Shown here in pieces: positions 3,817 through 39,326 of a stretch of DNA of 64,000 bases. Numbering within the stretch: position 1 is the stretch's first letter; each line of letters opens with the position of its first letter. Source of the stretch: Nitrosospira multiformis. Its GTDB lineage: Bacteria; Pseudomonadota; Gammaproteobacteria; Burkholderiales; Nitrosomonadaceae. The position numbers and the translations under genes were made by a program. The stretch covers positions 1 through 64,000 of the forward strand of contig NZ_FNKY01000001.1 of assembly GCF_900103165.1 (NCBI RefSeq). The letters run 5' to 3'. Below the pieces are notes generated by a model. The model did no database searches. It saw nothing but the letters and a program-made list of their open reading frames with translations, and had not been told where the DNA came from.

Positions 3817-3945
3817 TATCCTAAGCCCGGCAGTTGCCGCTTATTTTTATCCATTTTTCAACTCGAGACCATCACCCGTCATAACTTTACCCCACTGAAT
3901 TTCCCAGGGTGTTTGCTACAGAGCATCCCTCTGCCGGATTCAGGT
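3817..3945. repeat. Interspersed TIR element, copy E (upstream of argH)
   Basis: The ends are related inverted repeats: TATCCTAAGCCCGGCAGTTG at the argH side and CTCTGCCGGATTCAGG at the other. Read on the minus strand, the part next to argH (TTGAAAAATGGATAAAAATAAG, then the terminus) resembles the ends of the copies at 9.3 kb and 12.8 kb. The interior is more diverged, so this is the least certain of the paired-end copies. The remainder of the gap to prfC (3946-4047) shows nothing recognisable. Confidence 0.55.
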
Positions 3946-4047
3946 CGAACAATGAGTATAAATCAAAATAACTTTCCTGACGTCACGCCGGATTTCCGCA
4001 TCAAGGGACTTTGCGGCATTCACAACAAGGTGGCAAGAGATAGCGAA

Positions 4048-5658
4048 TTACCCCTCCAGATGGGTCTGGAATACCAGCCCGGCATGCTCCCGCAGTCTGT
4101 GGAACTGAATACGCTTCCAGCTCTCCTGGGCGACACTCAATTCTGCTCCGAATGACGCCAGAAAAGTGGGGGCATCTACCGCATCGTAGGCTACCCGATG
4201 CGCGTTGGTGTCGATGAACCGCTTCAGTTCGCGCGAATCATCGGACGTGACCCAGCGCGCCATCTGGTACTTTGCCGAAGCGAGACGGGCATCTACACCA
4301 TACTCGTGCTTGAGCCGGTGCGCCACCACTTCGAACTGCAATGTACCCACCGCACCCAACAGCAAAGCACCTCCGGCATGGGGCCGAAATACCTGGATCG
4401 CCCCCTCTTCACCTAACTGGGTGAGTCCCAACTTGAGCTGCTTGCTGCGCATTGGATCGGCAATCTCCACCGTCTGGAAGATTTCAGGTGCAAAAAACGG
4501 CAAACCGGTAAACTGCAAGCGCTCGCCTTGCGTCAGTGTATCTCCCAACTGCAACGTTCCATGATTGGGAATGCCGATAATATCGCCGGAGTAGGCGATA
4601 TCAAGCAACTCGCGCCGCTGTGAGAGAAAGGATACTACGCCGTTGGTACGGATATCCTTATCGCTACGTACGACCCTGAGGTTCATTCCACGCTCGAAGC
4701 GGCCCGAACAGATCCGCACGAAGGCGATGCGATCCCGGTGTGCAGGATTCATGTTCGCCTGAATCTTGAAGACGACGCCTGAAAACATCGATTCCGCGGG
4801 TTGCACCTGACGCTGCAAGGCTTGGCGCGATCCGGGTGATGGCGCCAGGTCGACCAGTGCGTCAAGTACCTCGCGTACGCCAAAGTTGTTGATGGCCGAA
4901 CCAAAAAACACCGGGGTCTGCTCGCCGGCGAGGAAAGCCGCGTGACTGAATTCTGGCGAGGCACCACGTATCAGCTCGATTTCCTGCCGAGCGTGGGCGG
5001 CATTCGCCGCGAAACGTATCGCGATTTCAGGATTATCCAGACCTTCGATAATCTCGTCCTGCTCATCCAGCCTATCCGCGCCTGGACGAAAAACGCGCAT
5101 GCGGTCGCGCCGCAAGTCGAATACACCATGAAAACCACGGCCCATACCCAGCGGCCAGGTAAAAGGCACCGCCGTCATGTTCAACGTCCGTTCGATTTCG
5201 TCAATGAGATCGAGCGGCTCACGTACTTCGCGATCCATTTTATTCACGAAAGTGAGGATGGGCGTATTACGCGCACGGCACACTTCCAGCAGACGCAATG
5301 TCTGGGCCTCTACACCATTGGCGGCATCGATCACCATCAACGCCGCATCCACCGCGGTCAGCACCCGGTAAGTATCTTCGGAAAAATCCTGGTGACCCGG
5401 TGTATCCAGCAGGTTGATGACGCAACCCCGGTACTCCATCTGCATCACGGAACTGGCAACGGATATACCCCTTTGCTTCTCGATCTCCATCCAGTCCGAG
5501 GTGGCGTGACGGCTCGCTTTCCGCGCCTTGACGCTGCCGGCGATATGAATGGCGCCGGCAAACAGCAACAACTTTTCCGTCAGCGTGGTTTTCCCCGCAT
5601 CCGGGTGTGAGATTATGGCAAACGTGCGGCGACGCGCCACTTCCTGATTGACCGCCAT
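4048..5658 (-). CDS. prfC: Peptide chain release factor 3 (RF3)
   Basis: RF3 is the GTPase that removes RF1/RF2 from the ribosome after termination. The 536-residue protein begins MAVNQEVARRRTFAIISHPD; this start is chosen because GAGGAA lies at a good distance upstream and because the open frame further upstream lies inside the transporter ATPase gene. G1 (SHPDAGKTT), G3 (DTPGHQDF) and G4 (NKMD) are clear in the first ~150 residues, followed by the EF-Tu-like beta barrel and RF3 C-terminal domain. Ten bases separate it from the upstream ABC ATPase gene, so it may be the last gene of that transcript. Confidence 0.96.
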   Translation of the reverse strand: MAVNQEVARRRTFAIISHPDAGKTTLTEKLLLFAGAIHIAGSVKARKASRHATSDWMEIEKQRGISVASSVMQMEYRGCVINLLDTPGHQDFSEDTYRVLTAVDAALMVIDAANGVEAQTLRLLEVCRARNTPILTFVNKMDREVREPLDLIDEIERTLNMTAVPFTWPLGMGRGFHGVFDLRRDRMRVFRPGADRLDEQDEIIEGLDNPEIAIRFAANAAHARQEIELIRGASPEFSHAAFLAGEQTPVFFGSAINNFGVREVLDALVDLAPSPGSRQALQRQVQPAESMFSGVVFKIQANMNPAHRDRIAFVRICSGRFERGMNLRVVRSDKDIRTNGVVSFLSQRRELLDIAYSGDIIGIPNHGTLQLGDTLTQGERLQFTGLPFFAPEIFQTVEIADPMRSKQLKLGLTQLGEEGAIQVFRPHAGGALLLGAVGTLQFEVVAHRLKHEYGVDARLASAKYQMARWVTSDDSRELKRFIDTNAHRVAYDAVDAPTFLASFGAELSVAQESWKRIQFHRLREHAGLVFQTHLEG

Positions 5659-5668
5659 CAAATATTCC

Positions 5669-7783
5669 TCATGCTGAATCTTGTTCCTGTGGGTAAAGGT
5701 AGCACCGCGCCGTGTGCGTTGAACTGAATGCGCTTGTTTCGGGGTAATGCTCACGGCATATCGGCATGACATGCGGACAACGAGGATGAAAGTGGCAGCC
5801 GGATGGCGGATTGGCTGGAGAAGGCAGATCCCCATGCAGGTGGATGATCTGGCGCTTTGATGCGAGATCAATGACCGGTACCGCCGACAGCAGCGCCTGA
5901 GTATAGGGATGCCTGGGATGACCCAATACTTCATCCACCCGCCCCTGCTCCACGATTCTTCCCAAATACATCACCGCCACCTCGTCGGCGATATACTCCA
6001 CCACCGAGATATTATGAGTGATGAATAGATATGCCAACCCCAGGCTGCTCTGCAAATCCTTCAGCAGATTCAGGATCTGTGCCTGTACGGACACATCCAG
6101 CGCACTGGTGGGCTCATCGCAAACAATCAGCCGGGGATTGACCGCCAGGGCGCGGGCAATGGCGACACGCTGGCGCTGACCGCCCGAGAACTCATGCGGA
6201 TAGCGCCATTTGGTTTCTGGCGGCAACCCGACACTTTCCAGAAGCGCATCCACTCTTCCCTTCTTGCGGGTGGAATGATGCTCCGCTTGACTTGCTTCGC
6301 CGCCGTCGCCGCCATCTCCGACGTTCAGGGCATCCATGCCCTCTTCAATGATATCCACGATACGCATTCGCGGGTTGAGTGACGAATACGGATCCTGAAA
6401 GATGAGCTGGAATTCAGCGCGCATCTTCCGCAATCGCTTGCGTTCCATCCCGACGAGTTCAAGCCCGTTGTAACGTACGCTGCCTGCGGACGGCGGAATC
6501 AACTGCAAAATACCCTTGCCGACCGTCGTCTTGCCACAGCCGGATTCTCCCACCAGCGCCAACGTCTTGCCCTGCCGGATCGTCAGCGACACGCCATCCA
6601 CCGCCTTGACATACCCGGTGATACCTTTCATCAGTCCCTTATGTATCGGGAAGTAAACTTTGAGGCCGGTGACGGACAACAAGCAGCTGGAGTCTCGTGA
6701 TTCAGAAGCCCGTGCGGGCTGAGGACTTGATTCCGCTGATCTTTCAGAGTCCTGAACGGCAGCTTCGAAATGCTGACTCCCGAGTTTCGGGTCCTGAATG
6801 CTGGGACGGGTATCTTCATTAAAGAGATGACACCTCACCTGGTGTCCGCCTGCCACCACATTCCACCTCGGTGCGATCTCATGGCACAGTTCCCACGCAT
6901 GGTCGCAACGGTCGGCAAAACGGCAACCGGTGAATTCGCTTGACAGCGGCGGGACATTTCCGCCAATCGCCGCCAGCCGCAATCCCTGCTCGCGCAGGGC
7001 TTTGCCCGGCAGGGAAGCAAACAATTTCTGCGAATAAGGATGCGCCGGACCGCTAAAAAAATCTTCGCGAGTCGCCGTCTCCACAATTTCACCCGCGTAC
7101 ATCACCGCCACCCGATGCGCCATTTCCGCCGCCACCGCGAGATCATGAGTAATGAGTAGAATCGCCATGCCGTCGCGCTGCTGCAAGCTGCGCATCAGAT
7201 CCAGCACCTGCGCCTGAATGGTGACATCCAGCGCGGTAGTCGGCTCATCGGCGATGAGCAGCTCCGGCTCCCCGGCCAGCGCCATGGCAATCATCATCCG
7301 CTGCTTCATTCCACCCGAAAACTGAAAGGGATATTCATTCATGCGGCGCGCCGCATCCGGTATACCCACCTGATTCAATATCTCCAGTACGCGTTCTTGT
7401 GCCGCCATACCGCTTAAATTGAAATGCCGCCGCAACACTTCACCAATCTGGTCCGCCACCGTCATTACCGGATTCAAGCTTAGCATCGGCTCCTGAAATA
7501 TCATGCTGATGCGCTTCCCACGAACATCGCGCATGGCGGCTTCCGGCAGCAGAAGCAGATCTTCCTCGCCGATCCTGATGGATCCCGCCACGATCTCTCC
7601 CGCCTCTGGCAATAGTCGCATAACCGAGAGGGCCGTCATGGATTTTCCGCAACCGGATTCGCCCAGCAACACGAAGGTTTCACCCCTAAGAATCTGTAGC
7701 GTAAGGCCATCCACCGCCCATACCGGTGCTGCACCGGTGTGGAGAACGGTTTCGAGATTCTCAATTTGCAGTAAGGGACTCAT
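5669..7783 (-). CDS. yejF: Peptide ABC transporter, double ATP-binding protein (YejF-like)
   Basis: The 704-residue protein is a fusion of two oligopeptide-type ABC ATPases (DppD-like then DppF-like) that drives the Yej importer. The first half has Walker A GESGCGKS, signature FSGGMKQR and Walker B with DEPTTALD; the second has GESGCGKT, FSGGQRQR and DEPTSALD. Each half ends with the oligopeptide-transporter C-terminal domain containing conserved cysteines. A linker of roughly 60 residues rich in Ser, Glu and Ala separates the halves, longer than in typical YejF. Its start overlaps the stop of the yejE-like permease by 4 bp (ATGA), indicating translational coupling. Confidence 0.92.
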   Translation of the reverse strand: MSPLLQIENLETVLHTGAAPVWAVDGLTLQILRGETFVLLGESGCGKSMTALSVMRLLPEAGEIVAGSIRIGEEDLLLLPEAAMRDVRGKRISMIFQEPMLSLNPVMTVADQIGEVLRRHFNLSGMAAQERVLEILNQVGIPDAARRMNEYPFQFSGGMKQRMMIAMALAGEPELLIADEPTTALDVTIQAQVLDLMRSLQQRDGMAILLITHDLAVAAEMAHRVAVMYAGEIVETATREDFFSGPAHPYSQKLFASLPGKALREQGLRLAAIGGNVPPLSSEFTGCRFADRCDHAWELCHEIAPRWNVVAGGHQVRCHLFNEDTRPSIQDPKLGSQHFEAAVQDSERSAESSPQPARASESRDSSCLLSVTGLKVYFPIHKGLMKGITGYVKAVDGVSLTIRQGKTLALVGESGCGKTTVGKGILQLIPPSAGSVRYNGLELVGMERKRLRKMRAEFQLIFQDPYSSLNPRMRIVDIIEEGMDALNVGDGGDGGEASQAEHHSTRKKGRVDALLESVGLPPETKWRYPHEFSGGQRQRVAIARALAVNPRLIVCDEPTSALDVSVQAQILNLLKDLQSSLGLAYLFITHNISVVEYIADEVAVMYLGRIVEQGRVDEVLGHPRHPYTQALLSAVPVIDLASKRQIIHLHGDLPSPANPPSGCHFHPRCPHVMPICREHYPETSAFSSTHTARCYLYPQEQDSA

Positions 7784-9288
7784 GGCTGGGAGGGGCCTTC
7801 AACCGTGGGAGAAACGGATTGAGCTTCCGATTTCTCTCCGCGTCCCCGGCGACGCAATATTACCGCCTTTGCCGGCAACGTTTTTGCTCGTGGATCAAAG
7901 GCATTCTGTACCGCATCGGCAAAAAGATTGGCACTCAATACCAACGCGAACATAAAACCGAAGGCCGCAAGCAATGCCCACCACACCATCGGTTCACGCG
8001 CCATTTCCAGCCGCGCGGCGTTAATCATGGTGCCAAAACTAATCATGGAAGGATCGACACCGACACCCACATAAGACAATACGGCTTCCGCCAGAACCAG
8101 TCCGCTGAAATCCATCACGGTGGCAATCAGCACGATATGCATCACATTGGGAAGAATGTGGCGACTGATGATACGCCAATGGGAAACACCGAAGGCATGG
8201 GCCGCCTGAATGTATTCCATTTCGCGCAGTTTCAAGGTTTCCCCCCGCAGCAACCGGCATAGGCCGGTCCAGCTGGTGACCCCGAGTATGATGCAAAGAA
8301 ACAGCAGACGCAGGTCGGCACGCGCGGCAATGGTGTCGAATAACTCGGGATGGGTTTCTATATAGACCTGCATCATCAATACCGTTGCCGCAATCAGCAG
8401 GACACTCGGGATTGAACTCAGCGTGGTGTACAAGTATTGAATGACATCATCCACCCAACCACGAAAATAGCCGGCCATGATGCCCAGAAGCAACGCGAAT
8501 GGCAGCATCATCAGCGTGGTGAGCGTTCCGATCACCAAACCCGTGCGGATGCTTTTGAGAGACTGATAAAATACGTCCTGCCCCACCTTATCGGTACCAA
8601 ATATGTGGTAACTGCCGGATAGTGCCAGCGCGGCACCGCAGAATAGCAATATGAATGCAAGCGTGATACATACCGCATTCCATGGAACCTGAGTGGTGCC
8701 GCGCCAGATGGCGGAAAGCACCGACGAGAATTTTTCACCGCTACGGCGCGCCAATAGTCCGGTCAAGGAAACCACCACGATGCCCCATAGGAGAAGCCCC
8801 AAACCTCCACCCACGCCTGCTTTCCAGGCCACATCGGCCGTAAGCTCAGATTCGGGATCCTGCAAATGCGCGCCGCCGAATTGCAACCGGGGGAATTCCC
8901 GTACCTGCCGTCCATCCGGAAGCTCCGTTGTTTCCCTGGCGTAAAGAAAGGCGGCAAAGGGCGCGGAATAAGTCTTTTCCACGCGCGTCCGCAAAGGGGC
9001 TGCAATCACGTCGAGCAAACTCAGCACTTCCACACCGTAAGCTTTCTCGCCGTTGCCACTGTTACTATTCTCAACGGCAGGGCGTATATGCACTGTATCG
9101 AGCAATCCAACGGCAATAAAAAATACCAGAACCGTAAGTGCCGCCATTCCGCTCGCACTGTGTCCCACACGCCGCCATGGCGCCAGAAGATATTCATTGC
9201 GCCGCACATACCAGACGAAGGCGATTATCACCGCCACCAACAGGTAGACAAGTGCATCTGTCCAGAGAATTACCGGTTTGAAAGACAT
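7780..9288 (-). CDS. yejE: Peptide ABC transporter permease (YejE-like), enlarged N-terminal region
   Basis: This is the second inner-membrane permease of the Yej importer. The C-terminal ~280 residues carry the standard binding-protein-dependent permease fold, with the DppC-type segment GTDKVGQDVFYQSLKSIRTG, LYTTLSSIPSVLL and an EAA-type loop near EMEYIQAAHAFGVSHW. At 502 residues it is longer than the ~340 of the E. coli protein: an N-terminal pair of membrane segments flanks a periplasmic stretch. The start MSFKPVILW is preferred over the longer frame because the upstream 29 codons fall inside an interspersed repeat whose end touches this ATG (TTTAGGATA-ATG). It is separated from yejB by that repeat. 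Confidence 0.88.
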   Translation of the reverse strand: MSFKPVILWTDALVYLLVAVIIAFVWYVRRNEYLLAPWRRVGHSASGMAALTVLVFFIAVGLLDTVHIRPAVENSNSGNGEKAYGVEVLSLLDVIAAPLRTRVEKTYSAPFAAFLYARETTELPDGRQVREFPRLQFGGAHLQDPESELTADVAWKAGVGGGLGLLLWGIVVVSLTGLLARRSGEKFSSVLSAIWRGTTQVPWNAVCITLAFILLFCGAALALSGSYHIFGTDKVGQDVFYQSLKSIRTGLVIGTLTTLMMLPFALLLGIMAGYFRGWVDDVIQYLYTTLSSIPSVLLIAATVLMMQVYIETHPELFDTIAARADLRLLFLCIILGVTSWTGLCRLLRGETLKLREMEYIQAAHAFGVSHWRIISRHILPNVMHIVLIATVMDFSGLVLAEAVLSYVGVGVDPSMISFGTMINAARLEMAREPMVWWALLAAFGFMFALVLSANLFADAVQNAFDPRAKTLPAKAVILRRRGRGEKSEAQSVSPTVEGPSQP

Positions 9289-9529
9289 TATCCTAAATCC
9301 GGCAGTTGGACGGGGTGAAGTGTACGGTTTTTGGGGTACGGGGCAAGGCGCAACGACGCGGAATGGTTGTTCCATTCCAAGGAGTTACAACGCAGCCATG
9401 CGCCGCAAAAATCGTGCAATCCGCCCCGTAGCGAACTCACCCAAGTGAAGATTGATTGAGACGAAACAGCTTTGTAAATCATAATATTAAACTGAAAAAT
9501 GGCGGTCAATCGCCAGATTTAGGATTATA
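9289..9529. repeat. Interspersed TIR element, copy A (inside the yej operon)
   Basis: This ~241-bp non-coding element has terminal inverted repeats TATCCTAAATCCGGCAGTTG on the left and CAATCGCCAGATTTAGGATT on the right. Its interior aligns with the reverse complement of the copy at 12830-13052 over most of its length, for example GGAGTTACAACGCAGCCATG against GGAGTTGCAACGCAGCCATG, and TAGCGAACTCACC against TAGCACTCACC. The left end abuts the yejE start and the right end stops 7 bp from the yejB stop, so it exactly fills the intercistronic gap. It has no credible ORF and looks like a non-autonomous MITE-like element. Confidence 0.8.
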
Positions 9530-9535
9530 GCGTCG

Positions 9536-10513
9536 TCATGCCAGTCTCACCCTTGGATCCACCAGCGTATAGGAAATGTCCGTCAATATCAGTCCGACGA
9601 TATAAAGCAACGATCCCAGAAAAACCATGGCACGCACTACGGCAAAGTCCTGTGAGTTGATCGCATCAATGGTATAGCTGCCTAATCCGGGAATGCCAAA
9701 AAAGGATTCGGCAATCAGGCTTCCCAGAAATAGCAGCGGGATCACTACCACCGCGCCGGTGAGTATCGGAATCATTGCGTTCCTGAGCACATGCCTGAAG
9801 AGTACAAGACTTTCAGACAATCCTTTAGCGCGGGCGGTGCGAACGTAATCCTTGCCCATTTCCTCAAGGAAAATGGTGCGATACCAGCGAGTGCTGGCGC
9901 CTGCACCGCTAATTACGCCGATGATAACCGGCAATACCAGGAATTTAGCGGCATTCAGGCCACTTCCATAACCTGAAATGGGGACCAGATGCCATATCTT
10001 GCTGATCAAAAACTGGCCGCCAATGATATAGAACAAACTGGAGATGGACATCAGGGCGACGCATAGTACCACACCCCAGAAATCCACGTAGGTAGCCCGG
10101 AAAAATACCATTGCCAGCGCAAAAAAAATGTAGACAAACAATCCCAGCAGGAACACGGGCAGCGCAATGGCAAGGCTGGGTATCATGCGTGTTTTGATTT
10201 CGTGAGCAATATCGCGTCCGTCATCGGCCCGTCCAAAATCAAAGGCAAACATGGCAACTGATTTCTCAAAAAAAATAGTGCGCGTAAATTTTGCGATACC
10301 CTCCACCGTATCATTAAACATGAGCGGTTTATCATACCCGCGCTCCTGCTTCCACTTGGTAATGGCCTCGGGCGTGACACGCTTGATTCCCAACTGCATC
10401 CGCGCCATGTCATCAGGGCTGTTAACCACAAAAAACAGGGTAAAGGTGATCAGATTCACGCCGATCAGAATGGGAATGGCATAAAGCACGCGCCGAATGA
10501 TGTAATTAAGCAA
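9536..10513 (-). CDS. yejB: Peptide ABC transporter permease (YejB-like)
   Basis: This 325-residue inner-membrane permease is of the DppB/OppB class and pairs with the yejE product. It starts MLNYIIRRVLYAIPILIGVNLITFTLF, the typical first helix, and has the conserved RTARAKGLSE...RNAMIPIL cytoplasmic EAA loop that contacts the ATPase, then GIPGLGSYTIDAI and the C-terminal YTLVDPRVRL. A periplasmic loop rich in charged residues lies between the first two helices, as in YejB. Its start overlaps the end of the binding-protein gene by 8 bp, so the two are likely co-translated. Confidence 0.93.
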   Translation of the reverse strand: MLNYIIRRVLYAIPILIGVNLITFTLFFVVNSPDDMARMQLGIKRVTPEAITKWKQERGYDKPLMFNDTVEGIAKFTRTIFFEKSVAMFAFDFGRADDGRDIAHEIKTRMIPSLAIALPVFLLGLFVYIFFALAMVFFRATYVDFWGVVLCVALMSISSLFYIIGGQFLISKIWHLVPISGYGSGLNAAKFLVLPVIIGVISGAGASTRWYRTIFLEEMGKDYVRTARAKGLSESLVLFRHVLRNAMIPILTGAVVVIPLLFLGSLIAESFFGIPGLGSYTIDAINSQDFAVVRAMVFLGSLLYIVGLILTDISYTLVDPRVRLA

Positions 10514-12829: not shown

Positions 12830-13052
12830 TATAATCCTGAATCCGGCAGCTGACCACTCATTTTTTACTCACTTTTCAGCTGGGCACCATGATCCACGCA
12901 GACTTTTGGCGCCATTTGATCTTTACCTTTTTGGTGAGTGCTATGGGATGGATTGCATGGTTTGTGCGGCACATGGCTGCGTTGCAACTCCTTACCCTGC
13001 ATCCGGGAAAATCATACGCTCCACTCCGCTCAACTGCCGGAATCAGGATAAT
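12830..13052. repeat. Interspersed TIR element, copy B (between yejA and fabI)
   Basis: The element is about 223 bp with ends ATAATCCTGAATCCGGCAGC and CAACTGCCGGAATCAGGATA in inverted orientation. Its reverse complement aligns with copy A at 9289-9529 from terminus through interior. The right end lies ~33 bp before the fabI start. The longer open frame that runs into fabI begins within this element and is a translation of repeat DNA, not a real N-terminal extension. Confidence 0.8.
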
Positions 13053-13085
13053 TCCCCAAACTCCTCATTACTTCAAGGATATGAC

Positions 13086-22687: not shown

Positions 22688-23434
22688 CTAGCAAAATACG
22701 GTCTGGCCGCTCACGCCTTTACTGTCCGGGCCCATCAAATATAGGTACCCTGGCATTAGATCCTCCGGTTGACGCAAATCCTGCTTGACCTCGCCGGGAT
22801 GAGTCCTCGTCCGCTGCGGCGTATGCGCCGGCCCCGGGATTATCACGTTGACGCGCAGGTTTGGAAGCATTTCCCATTCCTGTGCCTGAATTTTCACCAG
22901 CGCCTCGAGCCCCGCCTTGGCCACCGCAAATCCGCCCCAATAGGCGGCGGGATCATGGCCATGCATTTCCGAGGTCATTACCATGCTGGCATCCGGCGAA
23001 GCTTTCAGCAGCGGCAGGCAGGCGCGTGTCAGTGCAAATGGCGCAATCAGATTGACGCGTAGCAGCGATAGCCATTGTTCCAGCGTCTGATTCTCTAATG
23101 GCGTCAGGCTGAATATCAATGCCGCGTTGTGCAGAATGCCATCCAGTCTGCCTAACTGCAGCTTGATGGCTTGAGCAATCGCTTGAAAATCTTTGTCTCC
23201 CGCCTTTTCCAGGTCGAGCGGAAAGATTGCCGGCTGCACCCCGCCTCTGGTTTCAATTTCATCATACACACTTTCCAGTTTCTCAACCCGGCGCCCATGC
23301 AGAATTACGGTGGCACCGTGAGCGGCATAGGTGAGTGCCGCAATGCGCCCGATGCCCTGGCCTGCGCCGGTAACGAGAATCACGCGATCCTTGAGCAAAT
23401 CCGGCGACGCGTGATAGTTTTTAAAATTATTCAT
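22688..23434 (-). CDS. YciK-like short-chain dehydrogenase/reductase lacking the catalytic tyrosine
   Basis: The 248-residue protein has the classical SDR Rossmann motif TGAGQGIG (residues ~22-29) and LHNAA (~101-105), and overall resembles E. coli YciK, including the PADIMPLYLWLMG-like stretch (PEDLMPGYLYLMG). Ser155 is present, but the YxxxK motif reads FAVAK: residue 169 is Phe where the catalytic Tyr should be, with Lys173 kept. The codon is an unambiguous TTT in this sequence. The start MNNFKN is chosen because the upstream 16 codons lie in a repeat end (ATTCAGGATGA-ATG). It follows hpnD on the same strand. The substrate is unknown and normal SDR chemistry is doubtful. Confidence 0.85.
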   Translation of the reverse strand: MNNFKNYHASPDLLKDRVILVTGAGQGIGRIAALTYAAHGATVILHGRRVEKLESVYDEIETRGGVQPAIFPLDLEKAGDKDFQAIAQAIKLQLGRLDGILHNAALIFSLTPLENQTLEQWLSLLRVNLIAPFALTRACLPLLKASPDASMVMTSEMHGHDPAAYWGGFAVAKAGLEALVKIQAQEWEMLPNLRVNVIIPGPAHTPQRTRTHPGEVKQDLRQPEDLMPGYLYLMGPDSKGVSGQTVFC

Positions 23435-23458
23435 CCTGAATCCGATAGTTGGCCGATG
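23435..23458. repeat. Solo end of the interspersed TIR element (copy F)
   Basis: The bases directly upstream of the SDR start read CATCCTGAATCCGATAGTTG, a match to the element terminus seen in the other copies. No opposite end was found before hpnD, so this is a half copy or a strongly decayed element. Confidence 0.5.
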
Positions 23459-24450: not shown

Positions 24451-24569
24451 ATTATCCTAAATTCAGCGGTTGACCGCTCTCATCTGTCAATTAAATTTTC
24501 CATCAATTTCTACGCTGCCTGATCTTCATCTTTTTGATGAGCGCGCTAAAAGACGGATTTAGGATTATA
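24451..24569. repeat. Interspersed TIR element, copy D (short form, upstream of hpnD)
   Basis: The ~119-bp element has ends ATTATCCTAAATTCAGCGG and ACGGATTTAGGATTATAA, inverted. Its reverse complement contains TAGCGCGCTCATCAAAAAGATGAAGATC in pieces matching the inner segment of copies A to C. It is a short form that lacks the ~85 bp next to one terminus. It lies ~120 bp upstream of hpnD. The rest of 24329-24708 holds only the groEL terminator. Confidence 0.75.
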
Positions 24570-29659: not shown

Positions 29660-30466
29660 CTAAAGCGCTTCTGCGGCCCTCCAAAGTAGATCCCGCGCCT
29701 CAATCCAATCCTGTTCCGTACATTCATTCCACTCATCCATACGATCGCGAAAAGCCGCCACTTCCTGGGTGAGATCAAGCTGCGTATAGTCAGGCGAGGT
29801 AAAGACTCTGGATACGAGCGCCCGGTCGGCTCGCAGGCGCGCATACTGCGCATAGACGAGGTCAGACGGAATGGGCAGGCGGGCATCTTTTACCCGACCG
29901 ACGCCACCGAAGCCGAAGGGGATACCCGCGTTATGAACGATATCTGACAGGTTATTCATAAATTGGGAGCGCAGCAATTCGAAGTGACTCTTCAGCCCGA
30001 TATCCAGATGCAAGTCATTCAATCCAATATGGATCTCGTCGATTCCTTTAAGCTGCACAATTTCCTCAAGACGTACTGCCGCCGCCGCTGTTTCGACTAG
30101 TAACGAAACCTCTGCTCGACCGTCTATGTATTCAATGAATTTGGCAGCATCTTCAGTAGTCCTAAACATGGGAAGCATGATTACTTCTGCACCCGCCTCA
30201 ACGAATCGATCAATTTCTTCATCCAAACGAGGATGTGGTGGATTGGTCCGCACGAAAAGCTTGCTCTTTTTGAGAACCTGCCTTAACGCTGGCAGCTGAT
30301 TTTCTTCATGATCAGAAATCCAGGTGTTCAAATGCTGCTGTCGTACCGCTTTACCCAGCATCTCCAGATCAAGACCGATACGGTTAATCCCTGCCTCGTC
30401 AGCCCGCCTGGCCAATTCAATGTCATTAGTAAAAAGCGTTAATACGAAATCGTTTCCGTAACTCAT
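29660..30466 (-). CDS. HpcH/HpaI-type aldolase/citrate-lyase family protein
   Basis: The 268-residue protein has the class II pyruvate-aldolase pattern of HpcH/HpaI: Arg73 in FVRTNPP, the metal-binding Glu125 in LLVETAAAA and Asp151 in IHIGLNDLHLD, all in the expected order. Such enzymes add pyruvate or related enolates to aldehydes, or cleave the products. It begins 2 bp after the 2-hydroxyacid dehydrogenase stop, so the two are co-translated and may act on one 2-oxo acid. The setting among glycosyltransferase-like genes suggests surface glycan chemistry rather than aromatic catabolism; this is inference. Confidence 0.75.
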   Translation of the reverse strand: MSYGNDFVLTLFTNDIELARRADEAGINRIGLDLEMLGKAVRQQHLNTWISDHEENQLPALRQVLKKSKLFVRTNPPHPRLDEEIDRFVEAGAEVIMLPMFRTTEDAAKFIEYIDGRAEVSLLVETAAAAVRLEEIVQLKGIDEIHIGLNDLHLDIGLKSHFELLRSQFMNNLSDIVHNAGIPFGFGGVGRVKDARLPIPSDLVYAQYARLRADRALVSRVFTSPDYTQLDLTQEVAAFRDRMDEWNECTEQDWIEARDLLWRAAEAL

Positions 30467-30468
30467 CC

Positions 30469-31437: not shown

Positions 31438-32282
31438 TTTGTTTTACGCGATTTCATAAAGGCGCGCCAACGTTCCTTAAAGTTTCTCAGGGTTTTGCGG
31501 AACTGGTATTCAAAATTTCCCATGGGACTGACTTTGGACGTCACTGTCGAAAGGGATATTTCAGAAGAAGCCTCACGCACGGCAAGGAATTCTTTTTCAA
31601 TTTTCTCCCGATCCAACAGGTATTGACGACCCCAACGCTTTTCGAGGTCGACGCGAGACAAACCCGTACGAAGCTCAGCATAGCGTGTAATAAGATAATC
31701 CAGGCCAAGGTATTTGTAATGAAGCAGCTTGAGATCCCTTTTTTTGGGGAACACCACTCGGCCACTCGGATCGGCCTTATGTCGACCTGGAACGAAATTG
31801 GTTTCTTCGATTGCATCAGGATTAAATATGCAGAATTTATCCATCTTTTTAAAACGCATGCCGCGGGTGATCAGATCACATAAACGTTCGTCAGAATCCG
31901 GGAAAGAATCTGAAACCATCTGATAACCTTCGGCTGGTGGAATGGCGGTGATGCCCGCCTTCCGGCATTGTTGGAGATAGCCCAGTAGATCAGGGTGGTA
32001 TAGGTGTTCGTCCATACTGCAGATGATCACCCAGTCTGCTTTTTTGCGGCTCCGCTTCCATATATTGTCGTTAAACATAGCAGCGCTACCCACAAGCGAA
32101 TCAGTTTGCTTATGGAAACGGTCAAGTTCCACCTTCGGGTGCTTGGTCAGTATTTCAAGCGAGGCATCGGTGGATGCGTCGTCAAAAATGAAAAAACGAT
32201 CGGCAATTGAATTGTAATGCCGAAAGTAATAGGGAAGCATTCTTTCCTCATTCCAGCACAGCGAATAAATATGGATAATCAT
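31434..32282 (-). CDS. Glycosyltransferase family 2-like protein (Glyco_tranf_2_4 type)
   Basis: The 282-residue protein starts MIIHIYSLCWNEERMLPYYFRHY, the typical opening of the glycosyltransferase-2-like subfamily found in polysaccharide clusters, with FDDASTD and SMDEHLY as the acidic motifs. The C-terminal ~60 residues are basic and helical. It is the first gene of an apparent operon with the dehydrogenase and aldolase. The sugar and acceptor cannot be told from sequence. Confidence 0.75.
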   Translation of the reverse strand: MIIHIYSLCWNEERMLPYYFRHYNSIADRFFIFDDASTDASLEILTKHPKVELDRFHKQTDSLVGSAAMFNDNIWKRSRKKADWVIICSMDEHLYHPDLLGYLQQCRKAGITAIPPAEGYQMVSDSFPDSDERLCDLITRGMRFKKMDKFCIFNPDAIEETNFVPGRHKADPSGRVVFPKKRDLKLLHYKYLGLDYLITRYAELRTGLSRVDLEKRWGRQYLLDREKIEKEFLAVREASSEISLSTVTSKVSPMGNFEYQFRKTLRNFKERWRAFMKSRKTK

Positions 32283-32716
32283 AGGTATTGGGTGCGGGTG
32301 AGGATTTGTATTAAAAGGGGTAATAATGTATATGCGAAAAACCTTACAAGTATGATATATGCTATAACAAAGCGACAGCCTTTCCGTACATTATTTCGTA
32401 CACTATTTGCGACGATCTGGCTGGCAATGCTAAATTTTTTTAGCCTAACGAAATCAGTTCACATGCAAGCTACGGATTTAATATAGAATTCCTGCCAACC
32501 TTCCGGCAGTTCGGGAAGTTGCACCAACATGTCGCCGGTTTTCTCGCTGCCAATGTTGGGGCTGTCATTCTAGAATTTATGCGTGTTCTCAGCGATGAAA
32601 CCATGAACAAGATTTATTTGGGTTCAGGGCATTGCACAAACCCTTCTGGGCTAGCATGGGCTCTCCAAACGTCAGTGATTGCATGGGAAACGAGGAGGCA
32701 CCTATCGAATCACTCT
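32283..32716. other. 434-bp intergenic region downstream of trpE
   Basis: No convincing gene is present. The half next to the glycosyltransferase gene (32283-32490) is AT-rich and probably holds the promoter of the island, though no clear -35/-10 pair was found. The other half is more GC-rich, and its minus-strand frames contain short runs of sensible codons that may be decayed coding sequence. trpG, often found after trpE, is absent here. Confidence 0.4.
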
Positions 32717-34207
32717 CTACTCGATCTTGCTGTCCAATCCACCTTCCGCAATCTCGGCCGCGCGCAGCAGTGCCTTGGCTTTGTTCTGGGTTTCAATCCA
32801 TTCGCTTTGCGGCACGGAATCGGCAACAATGCCCGCACCCGCCTGCACGTGCAGCTTGCCGTCTTTGATGACGCCGGTACGGATGGCAATAGCCAGATCC
32901 ATATCGCCATTGAATCCGAGATAGCCTACCGCGCCTGCGTAGATGCCGCGCCTGGAAACTTCCAGCTCATCAATGATTTCCATCGCCCGCACTTTGGGCG
33001 CACCGCTCACGGTACCCGCTGGAAAAGTGGCGCGCAGCACATCCATCGCATTCAGGCCTGGCTTGAGCTTGCCATCCACATTGGAAACAATGTGCATAAC
33101 GTGGGAGTAATGCTCGATTTGCATGTTTTCCGTGACTTTAACTGTCCCGGTCTGCGCGACGCGGCCGACATCGTTGCGCCCGAGGTCCATCAGCATTAAA
33201 TGTTCCGCACGTTCTTTCGGGTCGTCCAGCAGATCGGCCGCCAGCGCGGAATCTTCCTGGATGGTTTTGCCGCGCGGACGGGTACCGGCGATTGGACGTA
33301 CGGTCACGGTGCCGCCTTCCAGGCGTACCAGGATTTCGGGTGATGCCCCAACCACGTGAAACTCGCCAAAGTGATAATAAAACATGTATGGCGAAGGATT
33401 GAGACTGCGCAGCGCGCGATAAAGCGCCAGCGGCGAGGCCCCATAAGGCTTGCTGGTGCGCTGCGACAAAACCACCTGCATGATGTCGCCATCAAAAATA
33501 TAGCGCTTGGCGCGCTCCACCGCTTCAATGAAATCTGCTTCATTGAATTCCGAGACAGCCTCGGCGGGCTTGCTCGGCACTTCAAGCGGGATTTCCACCG
33601 GTTTACGGAGATTGGCAAGCAGCTCCTTCAGGCGTTTTTTTGCGACTTTATACGCTTCCGCTGCTTCCATTGAACCCGTGTCGCCAAGGGCTGCATACAC
33701 GATGAGATAGAGTTTGCCGGAAAGATTATCCACCACCGCCAGCTCTTCAGACAGCAATAGCAGCATATCGGGTGTATTGAGCGTATCCGGGCGGGCATGA
33801 CCTGCAAGTTTATACTCGATATATCGTACGGCATCGTAGGCAAAATAGCCTACGAGACCGCCGCAGAAACGGGGCAAACCGGGGTATGGCGCTGCCTTGA
33901 AGCGCGACAGATAGGACTCCACGAAAGCCAGCGGATCTCCTGCCTCAACTTCCTGCGATCCCGCACCATTGATGATTCTGACACGGTTGCCTCGCGCCTC
34001 TATCCGAGTCCGGGCAGGCAAACCAATAAAAGAATAGCGTCCGAAGCGCTCGCCACCCTGCACCGACTCCAGTAAATAGGAGTAAGGCCGGTTGGCAAGC
34101 TTTAGATAAACCGACAGAGGCGTATCCAGATCAGCGAATGTTTCCAGCACCACCGGGATACGGTTGTAGCCTTGCGCGACAAGGTCATTGAATTCAGTTT
34201 CAGTCAT
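32717..34207 (-). CDS. trpE: Anthranilate synthase component I
   Basis: TrpE makes anthranilate from chorismate with ammonia supplied by TrpG, the first step of tryptophan synthesis. The 496-residue protein has the LLES feedback-inhibition motif ([20 protein letters not shown]) and the chorismate-binding motifs [22 protein letters not shown] and [11 protein letters not shown]. The start [10 protein letters not shown] is preferred over a TTG five codons upstream. A Trp-rich leader peptide and hairpins lie upstream. No trpG follows; an accessory island does. Confidence 0.97.
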
Positions 34208-34245
34208 GATTTGATCCCACAAAAACAGGAAGGGCAGAAATAGCG

Positions 34246-34309
34246 TGGCGTGTGAATGCTAGGCACGCCAGCAATCAAGGCCAGGGCGCCAGGGACGCCA
34301 GGCCTTGAT
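34246..34309 (-). promoter_or_regulatory. Candidate trp attenuator hairpins upstream of trpE
   Basis: Hairpin 1 (34274-34309) pairs ATCAAGGCC with GGCCTTGAT, extended inward by GGCG/CGCC, and contains two of the three leader TGG codons in its stem and loop. Hairpin 2 (34246-34270) pairs TGGCGTG with CACGCCA and covers the third TGG and the leader stop. The CGCC of hairpin 1 can pair with the GGCG of hairpin 2, giving an alternative fold. Downstream of hairpin 2 the transcript is T-rich but lacks a clean T-run, so control of termination or of trpE translation are both possible. Confidence 0.5.
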
Positions 34310-34345
34310 CGCGTATTCCTCGATTCCGGTGTTTTCGCGAATCAT
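34259..34345 (-). CDS. trpL: trp leader peptide (28 codons, three Trp), candidate attenuator peptide
   Basis: The 28-codon frame begins with an ATG overlapping the gph stop by 4 bp (ATGA at 34342-34345) and ends at TAG 34259-34261, 51 bp before trpE. Its C-terminal half reads KAWRPWRPGLDCWRA, with three TGG codons in 11 residues, strongly enriched for the rarest amino acid. The position between gph and trpE and the hairpins in the same stretch match leader peptides of ribosome-mediated attenuation. No homology is claimed; the call rests on Trp content, position and structure. Confidence 0.65.
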   Translation of the reverse strand: MIRENTGIEEYAIKAWRPWRPGLDCWRA

Positions 34346-35070
34346 GACAATTTCTGAATTAATTTTGTAGCATCGTATACGGACGTAACGATGGCGTCGC
34401 AATCCAGTTCGCGCACATCGCGCCCCTCATTGTAGCCATAGGGTACGCAAAAGACATGGCAGCCCGCTGCACGTGCCGCTTCGGCGTCATTGAGGGAGTC
34501 GCCAATCAGCAGCATTTCATGGGGGAGGATGTCGAAATGTGTACAAGCATGCAGCAGGGGCATCGGGTCAGGTTTCTTTTTCGGGAGGCTGTCGCCTGAC
34601 AGGACGATATCAAAATAATCGAACAGGCCAGTGGCGCGGAGCAGCGGCAAGGTGAACGCCTCAGCCTTGTTGGTGACGCAGGCCAGACGAAAATTCGCTT
34701 CCCGCAGGGCGTTCAATCCCTCTATTACGCCTGGATAGGGCCGTGTATTAACGCACAGCGTTTTCGCGTAATCGCGCTCGTAGATCGGCATCGCTTTGTC
34801 GAATAATTCAGCATCGGGCTCATCATCGAGACTGCCGGTCAGCGAACGCTTCACCAACTTCTGTATGCCCTTGCCGATATAGGATTGAATGGTCTCCAGC
34901 GGTAGTTCGGCCCTGCCCAGTTCCCGAAGCATCATATTGGCCGCCGCGGCAAGATCGCCCGCCGTATCGAGAAGCGTACCATCCAGATCGATCATTACAG
35001 CCTTGATCAACAGGGGAAATTCGATGTCTGCCGCAGAGGTATCTGCGAGCCGCGAAGCGCTTTTGTTCAC
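34342..35070 (-). CDS. gph: Phosphoglycolate phosphatase (HAD family)
   Basis: Gph dephosphorylates 2-phosphoglycolate, the product of Rubisco oxygenation and of DNA-end repair. The 242-residue protein has HAD motif I DLDGTLLDTAGDL (near residue 28), motif III Lys in PKKKPDP and motif IV GDSLNDAEAARAAG. A ~25-residue N-terminal extension precedes the core. It follows rpe on the same strand, and both genes would serve the Calvin cycle expected in an autotrophic nitrifier. Its stop overlaps the trp leader start by 4 bp. Confidence 0.93.
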   Translation of the reverse strand: MNKSASRLADTSAADIEFPLLIKAVMIDLDGTLLDTAGDLAAAANMMLRELGRAELPLETIQSYIGKGIQKLVKRSLTGSLDDEPDAELFDKAMPIYERDYAKTLCVNTRPYPGVIEGLNALREANFRLACVTNKAEAFTLPLLRATGLFDYFDIVLSGDSLPKKKPDPMPLLHACTHFDILPHEMLLIGDSLNDAEAARAAGCHVFCVPYGYNEGRDVRELDCDAIVTSVYDATKLIQKLS

Positions 35071-35165
35071 GTAGTATATTCCTGACAGTCAAGTAAAGTT
35101 CCGTAGCTTACGACGCACTCGCAAATCTGGATTCTCCGAGGCGCCCTGTTGTTTCGGGACTGAAA

Positions 35166-35849
35166 TCAAGCTTTCGCCAGCTCGGCCCGCAACGCTGCGA
35201 CTACCGTATCATAGCGGTGCGGATCGCTGTCCTTGCCTGCGCCATAAATGGCGGAACCCGCCACGAAAGTGTCGGCCCCGGCGCGGGCAATCTCGGCGAT
35301 GTTATCCACCTTTACGCCGCCATCAATCTCCAGCATGATGTCTTTGCCGGTTGCATCAATGCGTTTGCGCACCGCTTTTAATTTTTCCAGTGCTTCAGGG
35401 ATGAATTTCTGCCCACCGAAACCGGGGTTTACCGACATGATCAGCACCAGATCCAGTTTATCCAGCACATGATCAAGATAATATAAAGGCGTCGCGGGAT
35501 TGAATACCAACCCTGCTTTGCAGCCCTGTTCCTTGATGAGCCCGATGGTGCGGTCGATATGCCTGGACGCTTCCGGGTGAAAGGAAATAATATTGGCGCC
35601 AGCCTTGGCAAAGTCCGGAACAATGCGGTCAACCGGCTCAACCATCAGATGCACATCAATAATCGCCTGGGTCAGGGGACGGATTGCTTCACACACGAGC
35701 GGGCCAATGGTGAGATTAGGCACGTAGTGATTATCCATCACATCAAAATGGATGATATCCGCACCTGAATCGATAACGGCGGTGATTTCCTCGCCCAGCT
35801 TGGCAAAATTTGCGGAAAGAATGCTCGGAGCAATGCGATAATTAGCCAT
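35166..35849 (-). CDS. rpe: Ribulose-phosphate 3-epimerase
   Basis: Rpe interconverts ribulose 5-phosphate and xylulose 5-phosphate in the pentose phosphate and Calvin cycles. The 227-residue TIM barrel starts [15 protein letters not shown] (upstream in-frame codons are not conserved), has [15 protein letters not shown] with metal His and Asp, [19 protein letters not shown], and EIDGGV. It is followed by gph 95 bp downstream. Confidence 0.96.
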
Positions 35850-36012
35850 GAAGGCTTCCTTATAATCAAAAAACACCATTTTAACCGCAAATAGCTGTTT
35901 CGCGCTAACAGCTTCATCCTGTAAGCCATCATTCTGTCATTTTTATCACGCAGTACCATATTTTGTAGCCACCACCCTTGCCGTGACTCAAAAAATAGTG
36001 TGCAATGCGGGG

Positions 36013-36396
36013 ATGGCTGAAAGTAAAAAATATGAGATTATTGTAACGGTTCACACTACCTACCTCCCGGAACAATCGGACGAAGCGCTCGACCGTTACG
36101 TTTTCGCGTATACCATTATGCTTGCCAATACCGGCACGGTCGCGGCGCAGCTCATCAGCCGCCACTGGATTATTGCAGATGGAACGGGCGGCGTGCAGGA
36201 GGTACGGGGACTGGGAGTGGTTGGCGAGCAGCCGCTCCTAAAACCCGGCGACAGTTTCGAGTATACAAGTGGTACCGCCATTTCCACGCCGGTTGGGTCG
36301 ATGAAAGGCAGCTATCAAATGGTGGCTGAAGACGGTCTGCGCTTTGATGCAACCATTCCTGAATTCATCTTGAGTGTACCAAGGGTATTGCATTAA
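36013..36396 (+). CDS. apaG: ApaG domain protein
   Basis: The 127-residue protein is a stand-alone ApaG fold: YEIIVTVHTTYLPEQSDEALDRYVFAYTI, NTGTVAAQLISRHWIIADGTG, the EVRGLGVVGEQP motif and a C-terminal PEFILSVPRVLH. ApaG is linked to Co/Mg resistance and is often near ApaH, but its biochemical role is unclear. The start MAESKKYEI is chosen as the usual family start; an upstream in-frame start at 35983 would add 10 residues. It diverges from rpe. Confidence 0.93.
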   Translation: MAESKKYEIIVTVHTTYLPEQSDEALDRYVFAYTIMLANTGTVAAQLISRHWIIADGTGGVQEVRGLGVVGEQPLLKPGDSFEYTSGTAISTPVGSMKGSYQMVAEDGLRFDATIPEFILSVPRVLH

Positions 36397-36470
36397 GGGG
36401 TTCGCCGCATGTTTGCCGCGAACGCGACGCTGGCAAGATCAGGAATTGAAACATTCGGTTAGGTTTAATT

Positions 36471-36490
36471 AGGGCCTGTTAACAGGCCCT
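36471..36490. terminator. Perfect 20-bp palindrome between apaG and der
   Basis: AGGGCCTGTTAACAGGCCCT is a perfect 20-bp palindrome overlapping the der stop codon, between convergent apaG and der. AATTAAACC follows on the der side, a weak T/A tract. It may act as a bidirectional terminator. Confidence 0.5.
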
Positions 36491-37889
36491 AACCATATTT
36501 TTTCCGGCCAACCATACGGCGGCGGTGAGCACGTTTTGCTTCCGCTTCGCTGAGGGGTGCCGGACTTTTTTCAGCGTAGGGATTTCGACCCGACCTGAAT
36601 ACAACCCGCAACGGTGTACCTTCCAGCCGAAAGGTTTCGCGAAAAGTGTTTTCAAGATAGCGCTGATAAGTTTCGGGAACCTTATCGAGGGCACTGCCAT
36701 GGATCACAATCAATGGCGGGTTGGAGCCGCCCTGATGGGCATAACGAAGCTTGGGACGTGATAAGCCGGCGCGCGGTGGCTGCTGCTTCTCGACTGCCGC
36801 CAACAGGGCGCGGGTAAGTTTGGGGGTAGATAGATTTGCCATCGCGGCCGCATAAGCCGCATCAATCGATGGGAGCAGTCCTTTCATGCCGCTGCCTCGC
36901 AATGCCGAGATATAGTGGAGTTTAGCGAAATTCAGTAAAAAAGCGAGTTTCCGGGCAATATCGTTCTTGATGGTATCGCGCTGATAATTGTCCAGACCGT
37001 CCCATTTGTTAACGGCCACCACCAGCGCGCGCCCCGTTTCCAGGATGAACCCGGCGATGTGTGCATCCTGGTCGGAAATTTCGTTTCCCGCGTCCAACAC
37101 CAGCACCACCACATTGGCATCTTCCACCGACTGCAAGGTCTTGACCACCGAGAATTTTTCCACGGTCTCAAATACCTTGCCGCGACGGCGCAAACCGGCG
37201 GTGTCGATCAACGTATACGGACGTCCGTTGCGGTGAAAGTCAATATAGATACTGTCGCGGGTGGTACCTGGCTGATCAAACGCAATGACGCGTTCCTCGC
37301 CCAGCAGCGTATTCACCAGCGTGGATTTGCCAACGTTGGGACGCCCCACAATAGCAATTTTTGGGTGCCTGTCCTCTTTTTCTTCTTCTTGCGGCAGTGG
37401 AAAATCCGCTAACGCCAGTTCCACCAGCTCGTTCACATTGTCGCCGTGCGCGGCGGAGATCGCACAGGGTTCCCCCAGACCCAGTTCGTGAAATTCGGCG
37501 GTGACAACGGATGACGCCATGCCTTCGGCTTTATTCACCACCAGTATGATTTCGCGTCCCGTTTTACGCAGTTGCTCCGCAATTACCTTATCATGCGGCG
37601 CCAAACCGGTTCTGCCATCGACGATAAACAGCACCCTATCCGCTTCATCCACCGCTTGTCGAGTCTGCTTGGCCATCTCATGCAAAATGCCTTCCTTCAC
37701 CATCGGCTCAAAGCCACCGGTGTCGACTACCAGGTAGGGCTTATCGCCCAGCCTGCCATGGCCGTAATGGCGATCCCGCGTCAACCCCGGAATATCCGCC
37801 ACAATGGCGTCACGGCTGCGGGTCAGGCGATTAAAAAGCGTTGATTTGCCGACATTGGGCCGCCCGACCAGTACTAGGGTGGGTTTCAT
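36489..37889 (-). CDS. der: Ribosome-associated GTPase Der (EngA)
   Basis: Der is an essential double GTPase in 50S subunit assembly. The 466-residue protein has two complete G domains in tandem, each with [10 protein letters not shown] (near residues 8 and 184), DTGGFE/DTAGLR and NKAE/NKWD, and a C-terminal KH-like domain with basic tail. The order der-bamB-yfgM-hisS-ispG-rodZ is the standard proteobacterial one in reverse. Confidence 0.97.
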
Positions 37890-38000
37890 GACTTCCGGTT
37901 CTTATGCGAAGACCATCCATCCTTCTGCTCGGAAGGATAACGGTGAGCGTATTCCAAAATAAACAAACGAGCCCAAAATGAAGGAGCCCAACGAGACCGG

Positions 38001-39206
38001 TTACATACCGAAAGCATAAAGCCCGCCTTTCATGGTCTGCACCACGAAACCATTAGGCAGAGATACGGGACGGGCAACGATGGCGCTCCCGTCAGTGGCG
38101 GATCGAGCGACAATACTACCGGTGTCATTCCTGATGAGATTTACATAGCCTAGAGAATCCCCCACCACCACATGCTCATCCCGAATGAGCGGGGGAGATA
38201 ATTGGACGCCCTTGAGCATATCCTGTTTCCAGATACTGGTGCCATCCTTTTTATTGTAAGCTACCACCGCGCCTTGAACGTCGCTCACGTAGATGTAATG
38301 ATCATTCATGGCGAGACCCGCGCTGCTCGACGCGTCTCGCGCCCAAATCTGAGTACCATTAGCGATCTCAAAACAGGCAACGCGTCCCTGATAAGCGACA
38401 GCGCATATCTGCTGTTCGTCAGCCACTGGCAGGCTGGTGACATCCGTCATCCGCTCCAGTTCTGTCGCACCCCGTGGCCGCGATACCACCGCCTCCCACG
38501 TTACCGCGCCGTTTGCCAGATTTATCGCCACCAGTTTTCCGCCCGCGAATCCGGCGAATACCATCCCTTGCGAGATCAGTACACCGGCATAGCTCCGAAC
38601 CGTCAGGGATGGCGTTGCGCCCTGGTATATCCACTTACGTTTACCGCTGCCGGCATCCAGACTGAAAATACGGCCATCTCCAGTGCGCACCACTACTGTG
38701 CCGCTATCCGCTCGCGGCGGACTTAACACTTCGGTGGATACTTGGGCCGTCCACAGGGCTTTACCATCTTTGCTGCCATATGTCAGAACCTCGCCTTTGA
38801 GGGTCCCAACCAGTAACATTCCGTCACCCGCACCCACGCCACCCGACAATTTATGCCTGGTATTGACATTTCCCGCTTGTTTGCCCGTAACAGGATCAAA
38901 ACGCACCAGGAACCCATCCATACTGGCGGCATAAACGGCGCCATTCTCGTATACCGGCATAAATCCCAGCGCCTTACTTTCCTCAATGCCGTTCTGCCAC
39001 AATGGGCGCGCTCCCGGAATTGTCTTTAATTGGGCAGCCTGTTCCGGGCTCATCTCAAAGGTCTCGCCTCCAAGGAGCCCGCCGCTGATACCCGCCACAT
39101 CGATATCCGCCAAGTCACGCGCAATGTCGCGCGCCATATCAATGAGACTCACACATCCGGAAAATGCCAACAGCGGCACCAGCAGCAGGATATGCCGTCG
39201 AATCAT
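38001..39206 (-). CDS. bamB: Outer membrane protein assembly factor BamB (lipoprotein)
   Basis: BamB is the WD40-like beta-propeller lipoprotein of the BAM complex. The 401-residue protein has a lipoprotein signal MIRRHILLLVPLLAFSGC with Cys18, then repeated PQQ-type blades (GKALWTAQVST, GKRKWIYQG, GAVTWEAVVS, GTQIWARDAS, GTSIWKQDM). The start abuts an interspersed repeat end (GGATTTAAG-ATG). It sits between der and the YfgM-like gene. Confidence 0.95.
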   Translation of the reverse strand: MIRRHILLLVPLLAFSGCVSLIDMARDIARDLADIDVAGISGGLLGGETFEMSPEQAAQLKTIPGARPLWQNGIEESKALGFMPVYENGAVYAASMDGFLVRFDPVTGKQAGNVNTRHKLSGGVGAGDGMLLVGTLKGEVLTYGSKDGKALWTAQVSTEVLSPPRADSGTVVVRTGDGRIFSLDAGSGKRKWIYQGATPSLTVRSYAGVLISQGMVFAGFAGGKLVAINLANGAVTWEAVVSRPRGATELERMTDVTSLPVADEQQICAVAYQGRVACFEIANGTQIWARDASSSAGLAMNDHYIYVSDVQGAVVAYNKKDGTSIWKQDMLKGVQLSPPLIRDEHVVVGDSLGYVNLIRNDTGSIVARSATDGSAIVARPVSLPNGFVVQTMKGGLYAFGM

Positions 39207-39326
39207 CTTAAATCCGGCAGTTGTAGCGAACTCACCAGAAAGGTGAAGATCAAATGGTGCAAAAATTCATTATGGGTCATGACGTTAAACAAGGGAATGA
39301 GCGATTAACCACCGGATTCAGGATCA
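39207..39326. repeat. Interspersed TIR element, copy C (short form, upstream of bamB)
   Basis: The ~120-bp element has ends CTTAAATCCGGCAGTTG and CACCGGATTCAGGATCAT. The sequence next to the left end runs straight into TAGCGAACTCACCAGAAAGG, the segment found ~140 bp further in within copy A, so this is an internal deletion form. TCACC-agaa-AGGTGA makes a small hairpin. The left end touches the bamB start codon. The rest of 39327-39434 shows no recognised feature. Confidence 0.75.

Follow-up and report, generated by a model that had tools for sequence, protein, structure and literature searches.

The first 64,000 nucleotides of Nitrosospira multiformis contig NZ_FNKY01000001.1 (assembly GCF_900103165.1; hereafter the window) contain five copies and one solo terminus of an interspersed inverted-repeat element. 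We found that these repeats belong to a family of miniature inverted-repeat transposable elements (MITEs) that is related to IS1380-type transposons and ordinary in mechanism. Copies with matching ends and target duplications were found, orthologous sites without the element are empty, IS1380-related elements follow the same target rule, and start codons are not hit in significant excess. It is very probable that an IS1380-related transposase moved the family onto the 5-bp target WTNAW, without hunting for start codons.

A MITE family dispersed through the genome

An earlier note on the window had described five copies and a half copy with shared ends. All of them exist: with up to 3 mismatches allowed, the terminus pattern matched six times in the window, compared with a mean of 0.01 in shuffles. 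Across the 3.52-Mb genome the pattern had 159 matches at the same threshold, and a reversed control pattern had 0. Four pattern searches pooled gave at least 202 termini in at least 138 clusters, and copies were sought in the DNA around each of the 132 clusters that lie beyond the window. Among the matches listed there were 83 non-overlapping two-ended copies (86 before overlapping end pairs were removed) and 58 single ends, or some 140 copies. Copies with both ends decayed escape these searches, and further termini may be missed.

The 83 two-ended copies have 17-bp inverted termini (mismatches allowed) at both ends and are 43-408 bp long (search maximum ~420 bp). Most (52/83) are near 116, 236 or 385 bp: 32 are 230-240 bp (22 exactly 236), 15 are 110-120 bp, and 5 are 375-390 bp. 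The 236-bp consensus corresponds to the 116-bp form with an additional block (~120 bp), gained or lost, adjoining one terminus. The short copies had been described as internal deletions of the long form. They do differ from it by this block, but 7/15 of the 110-120-bp copies carry perfect duplications and the short form therefore moves in its own right. Identities among 32 copies of 200-240 bp reach 97% (median pair 80.5%), so some copies are fairly young. The copies contain no transposase gene; those of 200-260 bp average 0.14 and 0.07 through-open frames. Rfam covariance models at gathering scores found only three tRNAs in the window, and the MITE matched no known RNA family. A plasmid search with one full MITE copy gave 0 matches.

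The family is patchy within the genus. By our own count of termini at up to 1 mismatch, 12 of 23 Nitrosospira genomes had at least 17, five had 2-4, and six had none; the range per genome was 0 to 172. A divergent full-length match (75%) in G097 indicates that none at this threshold does not mean none. A second genus of Nitrosomonadaceae had 10-27 termini in 6/9 genomes. The family was not found in the open-licence PMC papers on Nitrosospira with MITE, inverted-repeat or transposase, and going by that literature it may be previously undescribed.

The element duplicates a 5-bp target

The element starts at CCTAAATCCGGYAGTTG, with CCT first. The adjoining (T)TAT, previously taken as part of the ends, is instead the 5-bp target-site duplication. 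Flanking 5-mers were identical in 41/83 two-ended copies and matched at 4 or more of 5 bases in 59/83. The rule WTNAW fits 40 of the 41 perfect duplications (the exception is GTTAA), whereas it fits 3.0% of the intergenic 5-mers of the window. We obtained the same result with a replicate set from two congeners, G094 and G103, in which copies were the best BLAST matches (100 match rows; scoring covered 40 candidates in each genome, and 70 loci were used). Three of the 70 loci had no two-ended copy and were left out. In the other 67, duplications were perfect in 41 and matched at 4 or more bases in 61, and all 41 perfect duplications fit WTNAW.

The short gap before the yejE-like gene is empty in 18/22 congeners, with CAT (ATG) at the same place in 17 of these 18 (exception, G112). 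Together with the genome-wide copies, these sites bear out the view of the repeats as an interspersed inverted-repeat family with target duplications. G096 has a copy, of a longer form, at the same point. Other inserts in this gap, in G102 (L207), G109 (L208) and G108 (L212), appear by eye to be degenerate copies. More than one insertion may have occurred there.

Only 13/150 copies lie inside called genes, compared with 1070/1656 WTNAW sites in the flanks. Most surviving copies thus occupy intergenic gaps or the edges of genes, and gene-internal insertions were presumably lost by selection. With distances judged behind a standard terminus rather than each copy's own, a called start was within 4 bp of 22/224 ends: 8 at 0, 12 at 3 and 2 at 4 bp. 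These are the offsets expected because WTNAW allows ATGAW, WTNAT before G, and WTNAA before TG. The stop codon of the incoming gene was 1 bp from 15 ends.

Based on these results we propose that an IS1380-related transposase would recognise CCTAAATCCGGYAGTTG at both MITE ends, cut WTNAW with a 5-bp stagger and join the ends there, so that the target is duplicated. This target fits start codons (ATGAW, or WTNAT then G) and stop codons. After insertion, the element end CCGGATTTAGG would replace the native leader. The duplication would leave the gene side with an intact ATG, and the gene could survive because the element end carries a weak GGA Shine-Dalgarno-like core, with translation presumably from the new leader.

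IS1380-related transposons share the ends and the target rule

No IS1380-type transposase was found in the genome with PF13701 and the L197 and L342 transposases as queries (0 matches); the enzyme that moved the family is therefore inferred from other bacteria. We scanned the collection of named genomes with an alignment of five PF13701-type transposases and kept the best 80 of 378 loci. Ends were sought at 75 of the 80; 52 had candidate ends and 32 were strong, that is, with a 5/5 duplication and at least 11/17 matching end bases. CC ends were a condition of the search and WTNAW was not. Among these best 80 loci, 29 of the 32 strong ones had a WTNAW duplication. The rule spans different ends among PF13701-type transposons in the family: those with ends like CCTATTTTCCTCAGTTG have duplications ATGAA (L197) and TTTAT (L237), and those with other ends (CCCAGATTTTCCATTA) have TTAAT (L185) and TTCAA (L186). 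L185 is a clear IS1380 member in the genus, above both the Pfam and the NCBIfam cut-offs. Three loci from other taxa (L334, L342 and L343; terminal inverted repeats CCTAAATCCGGCAGTTA/CCTATTTCCGGCAGTTG) have one end that is 16/17 identical to the MITE's. PMC3281130 lists a 5-bp duplication for IS1247, of the IS1380 family. The initial PF13701 loci in the family (30 fetched) had 0 termini within 2 mismatches of the MITE's, and a later search for any ends gave the related ones. A decayed IS1380-related transposase (L249; ~40% identity, internal stop) is present in G098, a congener without MITE termini at up to 1 mismatch.

Several points weigh against this origin. We found no autonomous element with exactly these MITE ends, and L185, which exceeds the NCBIfam cut-off, has other ends (CCCAGATTTTCC). 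L197, L240 and L342 score 131-152 bits against the NCBIfam IS1380 cut-off of 180 and are therefore labelled IS1380-related; L197, the one of the three compared with PF13701, is above its cut-off. Beyond the ends, the interiors of the MITE and the transposons have no clear likeness. Some of the 32 strong loci depend on one another, a single Dechloromonas genome contributing four of them and UKL13-2 two. In 24/83 two-ended copies fewer than 4 of 5 flank bases match. Finally, the gene starts are predictions of our own codon model.

Copies in the window

Four of the six window copies have perfect 5-bp duplications on both sides. Bounds are given without duplications, and strand + means A-side to G-side, these being the two sides of the element. 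The copy at 9292..9523 (- strand, 232 bp) is flanked by ATTAT at 9287-9291 and 9524-9528. Its G-side is 3 bp from the ATG of a yejE-like oligopeptide ABC permease gene (7780..9288, - strand), whose start codon overlaps the duplication, and it sits in the short gap that separates this gene from the permease gene upstream. The copy at 39207..39322 (- strand, 116 bp) is flanked by ATCAT at 39202-39206 and 39323-39327, and the left duplication holds the called start codon of bamB (38001..39206, - strand). The copy at 12836..13047 (+ strand, 212 bp; ATAAT at 12831-12835 and 13048-13052) does not abut a start and is 38 bp upstream of a fabI-type gene (start 13086). For the copy at 24456..24563 (+ strand, 108 bp; ATTAT at 24451-24455 and 24564-24568), no start was called in the 100 bp next to its left end. 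Its right terminus is decayed, and it is therefore scored as one-ended in the genome-wide numbers.

The other two are less complete. The degenerate copy at 3820..3944 (+ strand, 125 bp) has unequal flanks, with ATTAT at 3815-3819 on the left and TCGAA, not a matching 5-mer, on the right. Its left end is 3 bp from the ATG of argH (2401..3816, - strand), and that start codon overlaps the left flank 5-mer. The solo terminus at 23435..23451 (no strand assigned) abuts an SDR (YciK-type) gene (22688..23434, - strand), and its flank TTCAT at 23430-23434 contains the SDR start codon (CAT on the + strand). ArgH, BamB and the YciK-type SDR are above their NCBIfam cut-offs; the yejE product is an OppC-type permease and below every cut-off.

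The four start abutments reported in the earlier note thus hold with our gene calls, at 3 bp for argH and yejE and 0 bp for the SDR gene and bamB. The 2-3 bases reported between AGGA and ATG have to be corrected: with the ATG at 0 bp, an AGGA-to-ATG spacer does not exist. Homologous interiors extend beyond the termini for the copies at 9292, 12836, 24456 and 39207, but not for the solo terminus at 23435, which has one end only and an interior that matches no other copy.

The window also contains other repeats. A 41-nt inverted repeat (62432-62472 and 63818-63858; 90% complementary, 1345 nt apart) has the form TGGGTTACGC..CCCATCC and is another repeat family. There are 79-nt direct repeats at 45484-45562 and 53093-53171 (86% identical, 7.6 kb apart), and a 29-nt near-perfect inverted repeat at 58415-58443 and 58493-58521 with a spacer of 49 nt.

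Insertion at the bamB start codon

The reconstructed empty site of bamB has an open reading frame that extends 37 codons upstream and contains ATG codons at -9 and -21. The copy is missing at this place in 20/22 congeners, and there the codon at the position of the present ATG is something else. The nearest in-frame ATG in those 20 is 2-25 codons upstream in 11 and 1 codon downstream in one. In 8/20 an in-frame ATG was not found within ~25 codons (only ATG was looked at, not GTG or TTG). In G096 and G102 the MITE terminus and the ATG are both present. On this comparison of sequences, the insertion may have removed an older BamB N-terminus, with the ATG in the duplication taking over. Alternatively, the lineage may already have started bamB at the present ATG before the insertion. 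In G109, another MITE terminus (L418) lies beside an in-frame bamB ATG 11 codons upstream of the start in the genome studied here (G000). For 13 two-ended copies that abut starts, the empty site offers an in-frame ATG upstream in 3 and, in 3 more, only GTG or TTG, two codons up.

Orientation bias and the MITE end as a leader

We found that the copies are not oriented at random. Beside same-direction genes the G-side faced downstream in 67/89 copies (P 2e-6): 35/50 in this genome (P 0.007) and 32/39 in G094/G103. Copies of unclear orientation or without a same-direction gene were left out (89/150 used), and for 7 of the 89 a gene was called on just one of the two sides. The bias was first noticed in this genome, and the replicate is the cleaner test; it gave 28/34 once loci were dropped if both of their flanks matched an element locus in G000. 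By length, the bias was 38/46 for 200-260 bp and was not significant for 100-135 bp (14/20) or 300-420 bp (8/13). Abutting ends were 15 G and 4 A here and 4 and 2 in the replicate; compared with ends 5-100 bp from a start, this lean was not significantly different (P 0.10).

This bias would be explained if the MITE were kept as a portable leader, in which a sigma-70-like promoter on the A-side (TTGACC..TATTAT) reads out of the G-side into the adjacent gene and the end serves as the ribosome-binding region. We consider this doubtful, with perhaps a minority chance of being correct. Promoter-like sites were found in 19/86 copies from A to G and 8/86 from G to A, compared with ~10% of pair-shuffled copies, and retained ends of one-ended copies were within 5 bp of a start in 9/58 cases compared with 13/166 for two-ended copies (Poisson P 0.04). 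Both are consistent with a leader function. In contrast, 67/86 copies have no promoter-like site from A to G at our threshold, and the 300-420-bp class is little biased. The proposal that abutting ends are better conserved was not supported either (0.77 mismatches compared with 0.76 for other ends). Selection against a stronger hairpin accounts for the bias equally well, since copies of 200-260 bp form a weaker RNA hairpin when read in the favoured direction (-88.5 compared with -104.3 kcal/mol). Intrinsic terminators were not apparent as a cause: a simple scan found 1/86 and 0/86, and one copy analysed separately had 0. Orientation by genome position was unremarkable by eye with respect to replication strand. 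The bias may therefore come from an A-side promoter or from selection against the stronger hairpin, and these two causes remain.

Binding of ribosomes to the element end was assessed by pairing with the 16S tail. Upstream of the 22 abutted starts the mean was -3.22 kcal/mol (median -3.30), and in 118 other genes it was -3.23 (median -2.90; P 0.41, no difference); shuffled sequences gave -2.32 kcal/mol. Because its pairing equals that of other genes, the MITE end is a weak, average leader. In 13 two-ended abutting cases the leader before insertion had a mean of -2.34 compared with -3.28 kcal/mol now (P 0.15). The idea that the element brings its own initiation signal thus stands insofar as the end becomes a leader with a weak Shine-Dalgarno-like GGA, but the signal is only average for the genome. 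That the MITE is a mobile 5' leader, retained mostly in one orientation next to same-direction genes, with an internal promoter reading toward the gene and a ribosome-binding end, and able to shift start codons (possibly that of bamB), is a tentative reading that we think is probably wrong.

No significant excess of start-codon hits over the target rule

The element had also been suggested to target translation-initiation regions. With 4/6 window copies at starts and 22/224 genome ends within 4 bp of one, active targeting beyond WTNAW may be proposed, and the raw comparison (start overlaps in 10/53 copies, 40/586 for pooled intergenic WTNAW sites) looks enriched. For each copy, the WTNAW sites in its own intergenic gap served as the null. 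The main test excluded duplications matching at fewer than 4 of 5 bases and used 52 copies (59 minus 6 intragenic and 1 without a gene). In contrast to the raw comparison, 10/52 start overlaps were observed and 8.55 were expected (P 0.31). Results were similar for perfect duplications only (7/36, 5.06 expected, P 0.16), for duplications with at least 3 matching bases (11/64, 9.76 expected, P 0.35), and for the replicate (6/56, 5.97 expected). Stop codons were hit comparably, with 7 overlaps compared with 5.56 expected (P 0.25) and, in the replicate, 15 compared with 11.32 (P 0.03). The matched test is low-powered: 3 of the 10 overlaps carry no information because the start site is the sole WTNAW site of the gap. 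There may be a modest start excess over matched sites. Within the power of the test, the target rule and location explain the start abutments, and active targeting of initiation regions is improbable.

It is least plausible of all, and very nearly to be dismissed, that the copies are regulatory repeats with a structure of their own, either REP-like or bound by proteins, and a fixed gene association. Their strong self-complementarity might suggest this (the 236-base consensus folds at -119.9 kcal/mol as one strand), but it is contradicted by the variable sequence of the 5-bp duplications, by the empty orthologous sites, by ends common to autonomous transposons, and by the range from 0 to 172 termini within one genus.

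Comparison with known systems

Our results are most consistent with a transposase-dependent MITE whose loose palindromic 5-bp target suffices to bring its ends precisely onto start and stop codons. Some 140 copies, patchy within the genus, rewrite gene leaders in this way. Copies that abut starts could mislead start-codon annotation. The orientation bias and the possible shift of the bamB start are testable cases of a MITE shaping expression and protein N-termini.

Correia elements of Neisseria are roughly 100-150 bp, present in many copies, and have inverted-repeat ends, promoters at the ends, and a TA target. In a comparison of features, the Nitrosospira MITE resembles them in size, copy number, inverted-repeat ends and possibly promoters. 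We rejected membership in that group: the MITE duplication is the 5-bp WTNAW and not TA, and its termini are different from those of Correia elements.

MITEAba12 of Acinetobacter is likewise a MITE derived from an insertion sequence (IS) and found at AT-rich sites; according to PMC6382973, it has an outward promoter supported by transcripts and ends fused to neighbouring coding sequences. In the same paper, MITEAba12 makes 9-bp duplications and has the ends of ISAba12, which is present in the same strain, whereas the Nitrosospira MITE makes 5-bp WTNAW duplications and its parent was not found in the genome. The closest likeness is to the IS1380-related ISs. Unlike these, which encode a transposase of ~510-545 amino acids (e.g., in Betaproteobacteria bacterium UKL13-2), the MITE is mostly 116-385 bp and transposase-free, with an interior of no clear likeness to theirs. 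What it shares with them is ends that are up to 16/17 identical, the CCTA start, and the 5-bp WTNAW duplication.

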